A DNA stretch of 64,000 nt from Lacunisphaera sp. (lineage in GTDB: Bacteria; Verrucomicrobiota; Verrucomicrobiia; Opitutales; Opitutaceae). Every line of letters starts with the position of its first letter. The first letter of the stretch is position 1. The stretch covers positions 82,066 through 146,065 of the forward strand of contig JAQSCO010000015.1 of NCBI GenBank assembly GCA_029945445.1, read 5' to 3'. A program made the translations under genes and the position numbers. Below, in pieces: positions 22,295-48,030 of this stretch. Under the pieces are notes generated by a model. It had not been told where the DNA came from, did no database searches, and was given only the letters and a program-made list of their open reading frames with translations.

Positions 22295-22341
22295 GTGATT
22301 TAATGCTTCGCTAGGAACGGCTCTTGGTCAATCGTGAGCGC

Positions 22342-23502
22342 GTGTCTGTTTCCCTGAAGCTCAAGCCCAACGTCAAATCCCGCGCCCTCGACGGCCACCC
22401 CTGGGTGTTCGCCAACGAGTGCGAGGCCCTGCTGCCCGTTGAGCACGACGGCGAGGTGGTCGAATGCCGCGACCGGTCCAACCGGCTGCTCGGCACCGGT
22501 ATCTACAACAGCAAGTCGCAGATCGTCTGGCGGCGGCTGAGCCGCGAACGGGTGGCGCTTGATGGCGCTTATCTGCGCGAGGCCCTGGCCAAGGCGCTCG
22601 CGCGCCGGGCCGGCATGGGGGATTTCAAGCGGCTGGTGTGGTCCGAGTCGGACGACCTGCCCGGCGTCGTCGTCGACCAGTTCAGCGGCACACTCGTGGC
22701 GCAGATCCAGACCTTGGCCATGGAGAAGCGCGCGGCCCTCATCAGCGACCTGCTCGCGGATCTGGCGCAGCCGGCCGAGATTATTTTCCGCAACGACGCG
22801 AACATCCGCAAACTTGAGGGCCTGCCGGTCGAGGTGCACACGCGCTCGGGCGCGGCGTGGGAGCCGCGCTGGGTGAACATCGACGGGCTCAACTACTGGC
22901 TCGACCTGCAGGGCGGGCAGAAAACGGGATTCTACCTCGACCAGCGGCAGCAGCACGCGGCCGTGGCGCGCTACGCGTCCGGCAAGCGCGTGCTCGACGC
23001 GTTCTGCAACCAGGGGTCGTTCGCGCTGCATTGCGCGCGGGCCGGCGCGGCCCGCGTGCTCGGACTCGACAGCGCGTTCGACGCGGTCGGGCAGGCGAAG
23101 AAGAACGCCGAGCACAACGGGCTGAAGGCGGATTTCCAGGGCGTGAACGTCTTCGACTGGTTCACGGCGCAGCGCGAGACCGCGCCGGCGTGGGACCTGA
23201 TCATCCTCGACCCGCCGCCGTTCGCGAAATCGAAGTCGGCGCTCGAGGGCGCGCTGCGCGGCTACAAGGAGCTCAACCTGCGCGCCATGAAGTCGCTGGC
23301 GCCCGGCGGCGTGCTGGCGACTTACACCTGCTCGTATCACATGCAGGACGCCCAGCTGCGCGAGGTGCTGGCCGCGGCCGCGGCCGATGCCAAGCGCCGC
23401 GTGCACGTGCTGGAATACTGCCACCAGCCGCCGGACCATCCGGTGCTCGTGACGATGCCCGAGAGCGAATACCTCCGGGGCTACATCCTGCGCGTGGAGT
23501 AG
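22342..23502 (+). CDS. Class I SAM-dependent rRNA methyltransferase (RlmI/RlmK-like)
   Basis: A protein of about 386 aa. The N-terminal PUA-like part (LKPNVKSRALDGHPWVF) and a central bridging region precede a Rossmann methyltransferase domain with GFYLDQR, the SAM-binding LDAFCNQGSFALH and the catalytic LDPPPFAKSK. This arrangement matches the RlmI family of 23S rRNA m5C methyltransferases; the DPPPFA motif and TYTCSYHM (catalytic cysteine region) support it. The start is uncertain: GTG 22342 is preferred over TTG 22324. It is oriented away from DUF3052. Substrate base not determinable from sequence. Confidence 0.9.
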   Translation: MSVSLKLKPNVKSRALDGHPWVFANECEALLPVEHDGEVVECRDRSNRLLGTGIYNSKSQIVWRRLSRERVALDGAYLREALAKALARRAGMGDFKRLVWSESDDLPGVVVDQFSGTLVAQIQTLAMEKRAALISDLLADLAQPAEIIFRNDANIRKLEGLPVEVHTRSGAAWEPRWVNIDGLNYWLDLQGGQKTGFYLDQRQQHAAVARYASGKRVLDAFCNQGSFALHCARAGAARVLGLDSAFDAVGQAKKNAEHNGLKADFQGVNVFDWFTAQRETAPAWDLIILDPPPFAKSKSALEGALRGYKELNLRAMKSLAPGGVLATYTCSYHMQDAQLREVLAAAAADAKRRVHVLEYCHQPPDHPVLVTMPESEYLRGYILRVE

Positions 23503-23553
23503 TGGAGGGCCCAGCTCCGGCTGGGCCGCGGCTCAGCGGGAGCGGCGCCCTCC
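23502..23553. repeat. REP-like doublet, TCCC-loop class (copy A)
   Basis: A 52-bp element starting GTGGAGGGCCCA, 43 of 52 positions identical to 37324-37375. The first hairpin is GGCCCAGC-TCCG-GCTGGGCC. The second is a weaker hairpin with loop TCCC on the reverse strand. It starts on the last base of the upstream methyltransferase stop codon and ends 22 bp before the secreted-protein gene. Confidence 0.85.
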
Positions 23554-23575
23554 AACAGGCGACGGAATCGCAGCC

Positions 23576-24097
23576 TCAGCGCTGGGCCTGTGCGCTGTCC
23601 AGATTCCGGCGCGTCAGCCGGAGCTGCTCGATCTCGGTTTCCATTTGGGCCAGGTCGCTCACGCTCGCGGGGCGCTTCATGTCCTCCAGCACGGCGCGCT
23701 CGGTTTCCATCAGGCTGACCCGGGAGGCGGCGACGGCAGAGAGGTGCTCGGAGGAATTCCCGCCGAAGATGGCGGCGACGGTGGAGACCTTCTGGTTGTT
23801 GAGCGTCTTGTCCAGGTTGGTCGGCTTGATCTTCTTTTTCTCGCGGGCGATCAGCTTGTCGAGCTTCTCGATGGTCTTGTCGATTTCCTTGGCGCGCTGC
23901 GCCGTGACCTGGATCTTGGGCAGGACAATGACCTCGGCGTCGGGCAATTGGGATTCGACGGAGGCGGCGTGCGCCTTGGCCGCTTCGGGCATCTTGCTAG
24001 GTTCGGCCGCCTTGGCGGGTTCGGCGGCCGGGAGCAGGCCGGCGTCCGCCAGGATGAGGAGCACGGAGAAGGGCCGGCGAAGATGGGTGAATTTCAC
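23576..24097 (-). CDS. Secreted coiled-coil protein of unknown function
   Basis: A 173-aa protein with an N-terminal signal peptide (about residues 1-25) and an Ala/Pro/Lys-rich linker. A long helical region of coiled-coil character follows, with many Glu/Lys/Leu heptads (about 65-95 and 125-170, e.g. KEIDKTIEKLDKLIAREKK). The start is GTG 24097. A strong promoter-like sequence with a 16-bp spacer lies just upstream at 24108-24135. No family is recognised. Likely periplasmic or envelope-associated. Confidence 0.6.
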   Translation of the reverse strand: MKFTHLRRPFSVLLILADAGLLPAAEPAKAAEPSKMPEAAKAHAASVESQLPDAEVIVLPKIQVTAQRAKEIDKTIEKLDKLIAREKKKIKPTNLDKTLNNQKVSTVAAIFGGNSSEHLSAVAASRVSLMETERAVLEDMKRPASVSDLAQMETEIEQLRLTRRNLDSAQAQR

Positions 24098-25642: not shown

Positions 25643-26671
25643 TCAGGCGTAAGGCGGGCGGGTGGCCCCGATCCGGTAGAGGAACTTCTGGATGACCGTG
25701 GGCGGCTTGGGGACGAACTCCTCCGGCAGCTGGTCGGTGTGGCCGTGGCGGATGGCGGCGCCGATGGGCGTGCCGCCGTTGTAATTGCGGATGAGCAGCG
25801 TCGCGCGGTTCAGGAACTCGCGGGGAATCTCGCGGAGGTGGCCCTCCACGGCGGCCGCGTGCAGCGGGGTGTCGCCGAAATCATTGCGGCTGATGAGCAG
25901 GTCGACCGTCAGCCGGTCGGCCGGGATCTGGCCGATGTTGCCCGACTCGGCGGCCGCGTGGATGGGCGTGTGACCGGACTTGCTCGGCATGACGAGGTTG
26001 TCGTGGGTGAGGAACTGGGGCGGGATCTGGTCGAGGTGGCCGGCGATGGCGGCGGCGTGCAGGCAGGTGTCATGGTTCGCCGTCTTGGCGAGCAGGGCCT
26101 CGGCCGTCAGCAGGGCGGCGGGGATCTGGTCGAGGTGGCCGTTGAGCGCGGCGACGTGGAGCACGGTCTCGCCGCTGATGTTCGGGGCCAGGATGGCCTC
26201 GCGGGTGATCAACTGGACCGGGAAGCGGTCGAGCGAGCCGGCCTCGGCCGCGACGTGGAGCAGGTTGTTGCCGTGGTCGGTCTTGGTCAGGACGAGCTCG
26301 GCGGTGAGCAGCGCGGCGGGCACCTGGTTAAGCGCGCCCCCGGCGGCGGCCTGATGCAGCGGGGTGTAGCCGCTGTTGGAGCGGAGCAGCAGGTTCTCCC
26401 TCGTGAGGAAGGCGGCGGGCACCTGGTCGAGGAATCCGCTGCGCGCCGCGAGATGGAGTGGGGTGTATCCCGCATCGTTCTTGCGGAGCAGGTTTTCCCC
26501 GGTCAGGAGGATGGCGGGCACCTGGTTGAGCGAGCCGTATTTGGCCGCGATATGCAGCGCTGTGTTGCCCGAGGAGTTGGGCTTGGTCAGCTGTTCGCCC
26601 GTCAGCGTCTCCCCGGGCAGTTGGGAAAGCGTGCCTTCGCGGGCGGCCGCGTGAAGATTGATTTTGTCCAT
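25643..26671 (-). CDS. Ankyrin-repeat protein with about nine 33-residue repeats
   Basis: A 342-aa protein made almost entirely of ankyrin-type repeats of 33 residues. Each has the TPLHxAA helix (for example GYTPLHLAARSG, GETVLHVAALNG). The link between repeats is an unusually uniform variant, with a block like LDQIPAALLTAE in almost every unit. No signal peptide or membrane helix is seen, so it is probably cytoplasmic. Ankyrin arrays bind proteins. The near-identity of units suggests recent tandem expansion. Expression is divergent from the receiver gene at 26803. The partner is unknown. Confidence 0.9.
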   Translation of the reverse strand: MDKINLHAAAREGTLSQLPGETLTGEQLTKPNSSGNTALHIAAKYGSLNQVPAILLTGENLLRKNDAGYTPLHLAARSGFLDQVPAAFLTRENLLLRSNSGYTPLHQAAAGGALNQVPAALLTAELVLTKTDHGNNLLHVAAEAGSLDRFPVQLITREAILAPNISGETVLHVAALNGHLDQIPAALLTAEALLAKTANHDTCLHAAAIAGHLDQIPPQFLTHDNLVMPSKSGHTPIHAAAESGNIGQIPADRLTVDLLISRNDFGDTPLHAAAVEGHLREIPREFLNRATLLIRNYNGGTPIGAAIRHGHTDQLPEEFVPKPPTVIQKFLYRIGATRPPYA

Positions 26672-27234: not shown

Positions 27235-27236
27235 CA

Positions 27237-27300
27237 GGAGGGCCGGTCTTAGACCGGCCTTGCTCGCTGCAAACCGGGCCCGGCCGGGACGGGCCCGGCG
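27237..27300. repeat. REP-like doublet between convergent genes
   Basis: The first hairpin is GGCCGGTC-TTA-GACCGGCC (27241-27259). The second is CCGGGCCCG (27274-27282) paired with CGGGCCCGG (27290-27298). The start resembles the GGAGGGCC of other copies, and the second loop contains TCCC on the reverse strand. It lies between the receiver and rpoN stops and may end transcription in both directions, though no T-tract is present. Confidence 0.7.
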
Positions 27301-35709: not shown

Positions 35710-36120
35710 TCAGGCCAGGTCGGCGGGTCCGAACGCCCCGGGCAGCAGTTCGTGGGTGCTGGAGGAAATGTGCCCGCGGCCGCGGCAGACCGAGATGATG
35801 CGGGCATTGGGACCGAATTCGTTGATGACCTGCCGGCACGCTCCGCAGGGGGCCGTGGGCATGTCGGTCGGCGTGTAGACGACCACGCACTGGAGCTTGA
35901 GCTTCCGCTCGCCTGCGGCCACGGCGTTGAAGATGGCGGTGCGCTCGGCGCAGTTGGTCAGGCCGTAGGAGGCGTTCTCGACGTTGCAGCCGGCGTAGAT
36001 TTTGCCGGACGCCGTAAGCACGGCGGCGCCGACGTGGAACTTGGAGTAGGGGGCGTAGGCGCGGGCGGCGGCGGTCTTTGCGGCGGCCTTCAGCTTCCGG
36101 AGTTGGGCGGGCGTGGGCAT
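35710..36120 (-). CDS. cdd: Cytidine deaminase
   Basis: A 136-aa zinc enzyme converting cytidine and deoxycytidine to the uridine form in pyrimidine salvage. The catalytic block is GCNVENASYGLTNCAERTA, with zinc ligand C57 and catalytic E59. The second zinc-ligand pair PCGACRQ supplies C92 and C95. The short single-domain tetrameric type is indicated by the length. Its ATG overlaps the kbl stop by one base (TGATG), so the two are translationally coupled. Confidence 0.95.
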   Translation of the reverse strand: MPTPAQLRKLKAAAKTAAARAYAPYSKFHVGAAVLTASGKIYAGCNVENASYGLTNCAERTAIFNAVAAGERKLKLQCVVVYTPTDMPTAPCGACRQVINEFGPNARIISVCRGRGHISSSTHELLPGAFGPADLA

Positions 36121-37310
36121 CAGAAACCGAATTCCTGCTTCACTTCGGCGAATTTCTCAATCGCAAAGGCCAGGTCCTCGCGGCTGTGCGCGGCGGACAC
36201 CTGCGTGCGGATGCGCGCCTGGCCCTGCGGCACGACGGGAAAAAAGAAGCCGATGGCGTAGAGGCCCTTTTCCAGCAGGCGGGCGGAGACTTTCTGCGCG
36301 AGCGCGGCGTCACCGAGCATGATCGGGACGATGGGATGCGTGCCGGGCTTGATCGTGAGGCCGGCCTTGGTCAGGCCGGCGCGGTAGAACCGGGTGTTCT
36401 CGTGCAGTTTGTCGCGCAGCGCCGTCGAGCCGGTGAGCATCTCCAGGCACTTGATCGATGCGGCGGCGATGGACGGCGGGATGGTGTTGGAGAAAAGATA
36501 GGGGCGGGAACGCTGGCGCAGCAGGTCGATGATCTCCTTGCGACCGGAGGTGTAGCCGCCGTTGGAGCCGCCTAGGGCCTTGCCGAGCGTGCCGGTGAAG
36601 ACGTCGACGCGGCCCATGACGCCGCAATGCTCGTGCGAGCCGCGGCCGGTCTTCCCCATGAAGCCGACGGCGTGGCTGTCATCCACCATCACGAGGGCCT
36701 GGTATTTGTCCGCGAGGTCGCAGATGCCCTGCAGGTTGGCGACGGTGCCGTCCATGGAGAACACGCCGTCGGTCGCGATCAGCTTGAAGCGGGCGTTCGC
36801 GGCGTCGGCCTCCTTCAGGCGCCCCTCGAGATCCTCGAGGTTGTTGTTCTTGTAACGGTAGCGCTGCGCCTTGCAGAGGCGGACGCCGTCGATGATCGAC
36901 GCGTGGTTCAACTCGTCCGAGATGACCGCGTCCTCCGCGCCGAGCAGCGTTTCGAACAGCCCGCCGTTGGCGTCGAAGCAGGAGGAGTAGAGGATGGCAT
37001 CGTCCGTGCCGAGAAATTTGGCGATGGCGGCCTCGAGGTCCTTGTGGATCTGCTGCGTGCCGCAGATGAAGCGCACCGAGGCGAGGCCGTAGCCCCAGCG
37101 GTCGAGCGACGCGTGCGCGGCGGCGATCAGCTCGGGATTGTCGGCGAGGCCGAGGTAGTTGTTGGCGCAGAGGTTCAGGACCTTTTGCCCCGAGGCCACG
37201 GCGATGTGCGCGGTCTGGTGCGTGGTGATGACGCGCTCGCGCTTGTAGAGCCCGGCGGCCTCGATCTCGCCGAGAGTTTTCTTCAGGTGGTCGGAGTAGG
37301 CGGAATTCAT
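36120..37310 (-). CDS. kbl: 2-amino-3-ketobutyrate CoA ligase (glycine C-acetyltransferase)
   Basis: A 396-aa PLP enzyme of the alpha-oxoamine synthase family. It cleaves 2-amino-3-ketobutyrate with CoA to glycine and acetyl-CoA. The PLP lysine is in [16 protein letters not shown]. Other conserved blocks are [15 protein letters not shown] and [15 protein letters not shown]. The start at ATG 37310 matches family length. tdh lies just upstream on the same strand, and together they form the threonine-to-glycine pathway. A REP-like repeat occupies the gap between tdh and kbl. Confidence 0.95.
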
Positions 37311-37323
37311 TGGCAGGAGGTTG

Positions 37324-37375
37324 GTGGAGGGCCCACGTCCCCGTGGGCCGCGGCCCAGCGGGAGCTGGGCCATCC
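37324..37375. repeat. REP-like doublet, TCCC-loop class (copy B)
   Basis: A 52-bp relative of 23502-23553. The first hairpin is GGCCCACG-TCCC-CGTGGGCC. The second is a perfect 8-bp stem GGCCCAGC-GGGA-GCTGGGCC. It sits between tdh and kbl within an operon. Confidence 0.9.
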
Positions 37376-37389
37376 ATGTTGAGTTTTAT

Positions 37390-38430
37390 TCAAGCCCAGT
37401 TGAGTACAATCTTGCCGGACTTGCCCGCGCCCATGAGCTCGAAGCCCTCCTGGAATTGGGCGACGGGCAGGCGGTGGGTGATGACCGGGGTGATGTCCAT
37501 GCCGCCCTGGACGAGCGCGGTCATCTTATACCACGTCTCGAACATCTCGCGGCCGTAAATGCCCTTCAGGTGAAGCATCTTGAAGACGATCTTGTTCCAG
37601 TCGACGGTCGCCTCGCCGGGGTGCACGCCGAGCAGCGCGATGCGGCCGCCCATGATCATGTTGTCGATCATCTGGTTCAGCGCGAGGGAGCTGCCGGACA
37701 TCTCCAACCCGATGTCGAAGCCCTCCGTCATGCCGAGTTCCTTGTGCCAGACGTCGGAGAGGTTTTCCTTGGCGACGTTCACGGCGCGGATCGGGCCGAG
37801 TTTCTTGGCGAGTTCGAGCCGGCCGTCGTTGATGTCGGTGATGACGATATGGCGGGCGCCGGCGTGCTGCGCGACCGCGATGGCCATGCAGCCGATCGGG
37901 CCGGCGCCGGTGATGAGCACGTCCTCGCCGACCATGTCGTAGGAAAGGGTGGTGTGCACGGCGTTGCCGAGCGGGTCGAAGCACGAGACAACGTCGAGGT
38001 CCATGCCGGCGGGCACCTTCCAGACATTGCTCGCGGGAATGGAAACGTAGTCGGCGAAAGCCCCGTCGCGGTTCACGCCGACGCCGATGGTATTGGGGCA
38101 GAGGTGGCGGCGGCCGGCGAGGCAGTTGCGGCAATGCCCGCAGACGATGTGCCCCTCGCCGGTCACGATCTGGCCCTTGGTGAAGCCGGTCACGCCGTGG
38201 CCCACGTCCTCCACGGTGCCCACGTATTCGTGGCCGATGACGAGTGGCGGCTTGATCGTGCGGGCGGCCCACTTGTCCCACTTGTTGATGTGCACGTCGG
38301 TGCCGCAGATGGAGGTCTTCTTGATCTTGATCAGCACATCGTTGACGCCCGGCACGGGCACGGGCACCTCGGTCATGATCAGGCCGGGGCCGGCGGAGGG
38401 CTTCACAATGGCGCGCATTTTGATGGGCAT
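37390..38430 (-). CDS. tdh: L-threonine 3-dehydrogenase
   Basis: A 346-aa zinc-dependent medium-chain dehydrogenase oxidising threonine to 2-amino-3-ketobutyrate with NAD+. The catalytic zinc ligand and site are in [16 protein letters not shown] and the GHEYVG motif. A structural-zinc cysteine cluster is [15 protein letters not shown]. The Rossmann motif is [16 protein letters not shown]. The start is ATG 38430; ATG 38418 is possible. kbl is next, completing the pathway. A 16-bp-spacer promoter candidate lies upstream at 38456-38483. Confidence 0.95.
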
Positions 38431-38455
38431 GGGGAGGAGGGAATTGGCTGCCGTC

Positions 38456-38483
38456 AACCTAGGTGCCCTGTCCGCCGACACAA
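38456..38483 (-). promoter_or_regulatory. Candidate tdh promoter TTGTGT-N16-TAGGTT
   Basis: TTGTGT (38483-38478) and TAGGTT (38461-38456) on the reverse strand are 16 bp apart. The -10 sequence TAGGTT is identical to that at 29909 and 17831. The leader would be about 20 nt. Confidence 0.6.
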
Positions 38484-47868: not shown

Positions 47869-47889
47869 GGAATTTGAATCACACTGTTT

Positions 47890-48007
47890 GTCATTCTGAA
47901 CGAAGTGAAGAATCCGGTTGGAGGGCGGACGCCCTCGTCCGCCATGCCTCGCGGGTTGAGGGCACCCCGCCCACAACAGATGGATTCTTCGCTGCGCTCA
48001 GAATGAC
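47890..48007. repeat. Inverted 26-bp repeats framing a REP-like doublet
   Basis: The outer arms at 47890-47915 and 47982-48007 are 26 bp of GTCATTCTGA...GAAGAATCC type and match in inverted orientation at 23 of 26 positions. Between them (47917-47978) lies a REP-like pair whose first hairpin is GGCGGACG-CCCT-CGTCCGCC (47924-47943). It is a nested arrangement in the gap between GH2 and the tandem esterase. Confidence 0.85.
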
Positions 48008-48030
48008 AGGTAATTATATGTAGAGGTAAG

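Follow-up and report, generated by a model that had tools for sequence, protein, structure and literature searches.

A GGAG-tagged REPIN family with covarying stems and a RAYT-like transposase in Lacunisphaera sp.

Two 52-bp repeats in a 64,000-nucleotide stretch of a Lacunisphaera sp. genome (the window) begin with hairpins whose stems differ in sequence while their pairing is kept, and this raises the question of what is being maintained at such sites, and by what. The first-pass annotation, made from the letters of the window, had described these copies at 23502 and 37324 as agreeing at 43 of 52 positions and had proposed that the hairpin itself, as RNA or as single-stranded DNA (ssDNA), is selected or recognized by a protein. 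The printed letters place both copies as described and return the same identity count (an alignment of the two gives 83% over 53 positions), and the first stems read GGCCCAGC/GCTGGGCC and GGCCCACG/CGTGGGCC as written there. The repeats are very probably REPINs, nonautonomous inverted doublets of a single family of REP hairpins. A HUH/tyrosine transposase of the RAYT type, whose gene lies at another locus of the genome (C60:226903-227388), would spread them and most likely binds their tag strand as folded ssDNA.

Window REPINs and their genome-wide family

The unit of the family is 27 nt long and consists of T-GGAG, an 8-bp stem with a 4-nt loop (TCCN), and GC. Each of the 52-bp elements (23503-23554 and 37325-37376) is built of two such units in inverted orientation with the tags facing outward. 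The features of the two loci, of two other REP-like hairpins in the window, and of the transposase gene are given in Table 1. A scan of the 64-kb window with Rfam returned no family at the gathering score. An intrinsic terminator was considered for both window REPINs and rejected, as the letters show no T-run directly after either.

Table 1. Features at the two window REPINs, other REP-like hairpins of the window, and the RAYT-like gene (window coordinates unless prefixed; bit scores of hairpins from the covariance model)
Feature	Position	Strand	Remarks
Gene ending at first REPIN	22324-23502	+	Best NCBIfam model 23S rRNA cytosine methyltransferase, under cut-off (306.9/575 bits)
Left arm, first REPIN	23503-23529	+	Begins immediately 3′ of the stop codon of the gene at 22324-23502; tag TGGAG, stem GGCCCAGC/GCTGGGCC, loop TCCG; 45.1 bits
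Right arm, first REPIN	23528-23554	-	Partly decayed, 2/8 pairs broken and 6/8 intact; 33.7 bits
Gene converging on first REPIN	23576-24097	-	No match in NCBIfam search
REP-like hairpin of a different class	27236-27261	+	Resembles GTAG-tagged class; 17.2 bits
kbl, glycine C-acetyltransferase	36120-37310	-	Start 14 nt from second REPIN; start (37310) read from the letters
Left arm, second REPIN	37325-37351	+	Stem GGCCCACG/CGTGGGCC, loop TCCC; 45.0 bits
Right arm, second REPIN	37350-37376	-	Stem GGCCCAGC/GCTGGGCC, tag TGGAT; 42.6 bits
tdh, L-threonine 3-dehydrogenase	37390-38481	-	End 13 nt from second REPIN
Related but distinct REP-like hairpin	47919-47945	+	Stem GGCGGACG/CGTCCGCC; 20.2 bits
RAYT-like Y1 gene	C60:226903-227388		Bracketed by GGAG-tagged hairpin

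The copies are not unique to the window. A 76-bp sequence query located at least 40 places in the genome (47 match rows, with 40 of 81 candidates scored). The genome-wide covariance-model collection that the first-pass annotation had suggested, here seeded with 32 chosen rows, recovered at least 142 units (E ≤ 1, 150 of 7,142 candidates scored). Setting aside the 9 that are not 27 nt long leaves 133 full-length units. Of these, 117 have an intact GGAG tag, 129 have a G-C at stem pair 6, and 127 have one at stem pair 7. Three upper-stem classes predominate (GCG, 50 units; AGC, 34; and GTC, 21); pairwise differences within them (3.77, 3.46, and 3.63 of 27 positions, respectively) offer no useful age contrast. 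The full-length units form 37 tag-outward doublets at a spacing of 23 to 27 nt, 30 of which are spaced at exactly 25 nt. Gene calls from a home-made program place 60 of 85 sites between genes and 13 within genes, with 12 unplaced. The intergenic sites include 28 between convergent and 2 between divergent genes; of the window's 38 spacers, 8 are convergent and 8 divergent (P = 0.017 and 0.012, respectively).

Hairpins with a conserved tetranucleotide at the 5′ foot, in many mainly intergenic copies and in inverted doublets, are the hallmarks of REPs and REPINs, and all of these are found here. The tetranucleotide is GGAG, unlike the usual GTAG or GTGG (the REP tetranucleotide is described as "most often GTAG" in the text of PMC8266576); membership in the GTAG families is thereby excluded, but membership in the REPs is not. 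With at most 150 candidates scored per genome, units were detected (E ≤ 0.001) in 13 of the 19 genomes examined from the genus, a count that includes the window's own, and ten genomes from other families of the order yielded none. One contig of the own genome ends inside a REPIN (C63:74026-74074), which indicates that the assembly breaks at such repeats and that some copies are probably missing.

Two further elements of the window, at 27237-27300 and 47917-47978, had been taken as additional copies. The shared layout stands, but membership in the GGAG family does not, as the covariance model of the 27-nt unit matches only the first hairpin of each and does so with low scores (17.2 and 20.2 bits). 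The second hairpin of the 47917 element resembles the repeat bracketing another Y1 transposase gene (C55:49104). This gene is one of five further Y1 genes in the genome (the others being C45:129863, C14:270519, C45:81585, and C14:272784), each of which sits between its own inverted repeats of differing sequence (arms of 28 to 40 nt, 80 to 100% complementary), so several REP classes probably coexist. The 47917 doublet is itself enclosed by inverted copies of a third repeat, of the TTCTGAACGAAGTGAAGAATCC type (window 47885-48010), which matches many places in the genome. Elsewhere in the window (25725-26571), a minus-strand gene contains about 10 direct repeats of 99 bp, each encoding 33 residues, which we presume from their length to be ankyrin-like.

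The RAYT-like transposase and its relatives

Six Y1 transposase matches were identified in the genome, three of them above the family cut-off. The gene at C60 has a GGAG hairpin 5 nt before its ATG and another 1 nt after its stop codon, and it thus lies between inverted REPs with further copies in the genome, as expected of a RAYT. Its protein scores 18.0 bits in Pfam, under the cut-off of 23 bits. The best NCBIfam model is REP-associated tyrosine transposase (NF047646), yet the score of 73.5 bits falls under the cut-off of 80, and we therefore call the protein RAYT-like. Among relatives of solved structure, E. coli TnpAREP is the best (4er8, E value of 4.7e-8), and the HUH motif PDHIHLF and the catalytic tyrosine segment KWEYVRGNPVRH of the open frame align with it. 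A metagenome-assembled genome of Opitutus sp. encodes a named relative that is 71% identical and whose gene has the same hairpins on either side.

Close orthologs (58 to 72% identical) are present in seven congeners, although that of G014 has a stop within the matched stretch. The hairpins around all eight genes keep the GGAG tag and the GG/CC stem base, and their upper stems fall into three types: AGC in the window's genome (G000), G004, and G014; GCG in G007, G010, G011, and G017; and GTC in G016, where 7 of 8 pairs form. The three AGC enzymes form a clade with support of 99/96, while most other forks of the RAYT tree are open; the surroundings of the genes in G000, G004, and G016 match. Genome-wide unit counts with at most 1 mismatch show that, in six of the seven genomes with an AGC or GCG enzyme, the class bracketing the enzyme outnumbers the other of these two (AGC/GCG units: G004, 92/38; G014, 17/1; G007, 9/20; G010, 3/13; G011, 8/77; and G017, 3/8). 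The exception is the window's own genome, which has 30 AGC and 47 GCG units, contrary to its AGC enzyme. G016, with the GTC enzyme, has 33 AGC and 6 GCG units (GTC uncounted). The corresponding counts are 17 and 48 in G012, where the best match to the RAYT shares 41% identity. Just downstream of the GTC-bracketed gene of G016 (G016:C1:2309520-2311550) lies an abutting doublet of one GTC arm and one AGC arm.

The published TnpAREP work (PMC8266576) leads us to infer how such an enzyme may bind, cleave, and move REPINs. The RAYT would bind tag-strand hairpins exposed as ssDNA, would read the GGAG tag, the GG/CC stem base, and the TCC loop, and would move or copy the doublets. It would need the upper stem mainly as a duplex, and the upper stem could then drift by paired changes. 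The same biochemistry of the family makes ssDNA the favored acting form over RNA. The text of that study describes enzymes of E. coli, Stenotrophomonas, and Marinomonas from the same transposase family as the C60 protein, and its group 3 REPs are likewise tagged perfect palindromes, in which certain loop bases are essential; those enzymes were assayed, whereas ours is described from sequence.

The closest described arrangements share much with this family. As far as the text of Nunvar et al. (2010; PMC2817692) describes them, the Stenotrophomonas systems have the same REP-rayt-REP order, perfect GC-rich palindromes, and preserved pairing, with a head of GT(A/G)G in place of GGAG and in another phylum. 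Opitutus terrae, from the same bacterial family as our host, carries GTAG-17 HH dimers 1 to 2 bp apart, with tags given as GTAG or GTGG in the text of Di Nocera et al. (2013; PMC3733652). The REPINs of P. fluorescens SBW25, in the text of Bertels and Rainey (2011; PMC3116915), are likewise inverted REP doublets with conserved ends that are tied to specific RAYTs. In their GI class, however, the conserved 16-mers start 71 bp apart, whereas the arms here mostly abut; compensatory changes were noted there in the spacer and here lie in the upper stem of each arm. The GGAG tag is absent from the main texts of PMC8266576, PMC3733652, and PMC6006769. Collectively, a new GGAG-tagged REP/REPIN family with a RAYT-like enzyme in relatives of Opitutus is well supported.

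Covariation of the stems and its possible causes

Stem pairs 9 to 13 vary among the units while mostly staying paired, and 91 of the 133 stems are fully paired when G-U is counted. Covariation was assessed in three collections with shuffles that ignore the relatedness of the units, and no shuffle reached the observed total of cells changed on both sides in any of them. The seed alignment of 32 rows, hand-chosen from 61 units picked partly for pairing, has 96.7% of its cells paired and contains 46 both-side-changed cells against 15.2 after shuffling, a total that falls to 5 or fewer when the partner is slid by 1 to 3 columns. In this alignment, pairs with at least one both-side change are not in excess (5 versus 4.0 shuffled), nor are pair types (10 versus 9.9). 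The 98 distinct model-found units contain 150 such cells against 49.8. Both of these collections lean towards paired stems, and a third, of 57 units, does not, as its places were found by sequence alone and its units by tag, foot, and loop; it contains 73 such cells against 26.7 (0 of 1,000 shuffles reached the observed value). The excess of covariation on which the proposal of a selected or recognized hairpin depended is thus present in all three. Together with the RAYT-like gene bracketed by the same hairpin, it supports that proposal, while the alternative of action as RNA found no support.

The same pattern is seen at sites shared among congeners. In the kbl-tdh spacer, a REPIN occupies the same place in 3 of 15 resolved genomes (G000, G014, and G016), whose right arms differ at only 1 to 2 of 27 positions, and the left stems of the three species (CCACG/CGTGG, TCAGC/GCTGA, and ACATC/GATGT) are all perfect. 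At the 23502 site, units of the GGAG family are found in 7 of 20 genomes, own genome included. Across 57 matched unit pairs, which count several species pairs per site and are not independent, 91 stem pairs changed on both sides, compared with 37.5 expected if the sides were independent; 83 of these 91 are paired in both species, and 39 further stem pairs changed on one side. These differences do not distinguish change in place from conversion by another copy or from re-insertion. No clean empty site was found for the REPINs of the GGAG family. In G018 and G009, the kbl-tdh spacer holds an insert of about 445 bp instead of a REPIN, seemingly with a short open frame, perhaps GxxExxY-like.

Covariation of this kind could arise by shared descent only, if a few stem classes had each arisen once and been copied often. 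The three main classes do hold most of the 133 units and the shuffles ignore relatedness, but the fully paired upper stems (with G-U counted) fall into 22 types, 12 of which are seen once, and neither the both-side changes between congeners nor the three perfect left stems beside nearly constant right arms at kbl-tdh are expected from such copying, so we regard this account as improbable. Alternatively, mutation alone might restore pairing, with a polymerase copying one hairpin arm from the other and so correcting an imperfect palindrome without selection. Templated correction of imperfect palindromes is a known mutational process that could add to the covariation, and broken-tag units remain largely paired (8 of 16 perfectly paired versus 83 of 117 with an intact tag, a nonsignificant difference, P = 0.15). 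It predicts even variation along the stem, however, whereas pairs 6 and 7 are nearly fixed and pair 12 splits 65/38/25; the unpaired tag and loop are also conserved, and the arms of doublets are not equalized (0 of 103). As the whole explanation, it seems quite unlikely.

The hairpins could also be retained for a role in host RNA, at transcript ends, in mRNA protection, or in attenuation, with the RAYT merely their source. The intergenic and convergent placement of the sites and the occurrence of several of them in congeners are compatible with such a role, but avoidance of promoters accounts for the placement equally well. Neither window element is followed directly by a T-run and no Rfam family was found in the window. 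Wobble pairs in columns 6 to 12 show no strand preference (15 versus 18; in column 13 the count is 41 versus 0, mainly from one class), and conservation extends beyond the stem to the GGAG tag and the loop, which a stem acting in RNA would not by itself require. We give little credence to an RNA role for these reasons, and retention through recognition by the RAYT is the reading that we prefer.

That REP stems change by compensation is itself not new, and neither is RAYT-REP coevolution; the first-pass annotation was right on a point already in print. Bertels and Rainey (PMC3116915) state that compensatory changes in REPINs are common, Nunvar et al. (PMC2817692) suggested selection for complementary REP mutations and showed coevolution, with RAYT and REP trees of the same topology in Stenotrophomonas, and Di Nocera et al. 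(PMC3733652) described subfamilies with alternative complementary stem residues. The present family adds a well-supported example of REP stem covariation from a little-studied phylum. Its eight related genomes, with orthologous transposases and three stems, offer a natural experiment in target recognition by the enzyme.

Unequal arms in abutting doublets

Identical arms are absent from the abutting doublets. In G000, 0 of 37 have them, where re-pairing of arms within classes predicts 6.3, and in twelve genomes 0 of 103, where 19.7 are predicted and the lowest of 5,000 shuffles gave 7. The relatives' doublets in the larger set come from high-scoring matches, in which the AGC class is over-represented; with AGC-AGC doublets excluded, the count is still 0 of 64. 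The 21 same-class doublets outside AGC-AGC are unequal in twelve different ways. Watson-Crick pairing of the upper stem is found at 329 of 370 positions within arms versus 258 of 370 between arms. Folded as ssDNA, 23503-23554 is best as one long hairpin and 37325-37376 as a pair of small hairpins, with -22.6 kcal/mol in each case. For 89 natural doublets spaced at 25 nt, DNA folding parameters give a mean difference of 0.0 kcal/mol between the long and the two-hairpin form, two hairpins being better in 42; the 47 same-class doublets favor the long form (median, 3.4 kcal/mol) and the 42 others the two-hairpin form (3.6 kcal/mol). Equal-armed controls favor the long hairpin by 16.5 kcal/mol and random same-class pairs by 6.8 kcal/mol.

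A tentative and rather doubtful explanation is that the arms of abutting REPINs, each preserving its own stem through paired changes, are actively kept unequal, so that selection would act on the balance between one long and two small hairpins and not on the sequence of the stems, with spaced doublets exempt. If this were true, abutting doublets would need unequal arms and spaced ones would not; such a balance could allow a RAYT dimer to find two hairpins, or could spare the element from palindrome-cutting enzymes. The result is relevant to a question that the literature leaves unanswered, the frequent unequal partners in REP dimers: the text of Di Nocera et al. (PMC3733652) reports a preference for heterodimers with no obvious explanation and suggests that it protects against enzymes such as SbcCD. 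In the REP literature surveyed, which comprised texts rather than figures and few of the subscription papers, we met no statement linking the spacing of the arms to the difference between them.

Doublets spaced 47 to 120 nt apart have identical arms in 9 of 20 cases, compared with 0 of 103 abutting ones (Fisher's exact test, 1e-8, a P value made too small by shared descent). All nine are AGC doublets, from G004 (six) and G014 (three), and possibly stem from one founder, and spaced doublets of the other classes have unequal arms in 8 of 8 cases, which argues against the spacing half of the arm rule. In a rough scan for other tagged hairpins in the DNA analyzed, the arms were equal in none of 18 abutting pairs and in 9 of 43 spaced ones. 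A large part of those 18 consists of mis-sorted members of the GGAG family and about six seem genuinely different, so the scan is only a hint. In the spaced doublets with identical arms in G004 and G014, the spacers of about 25 nt vary and are often partly self-complementary, perhaps forming a third small hairpin.
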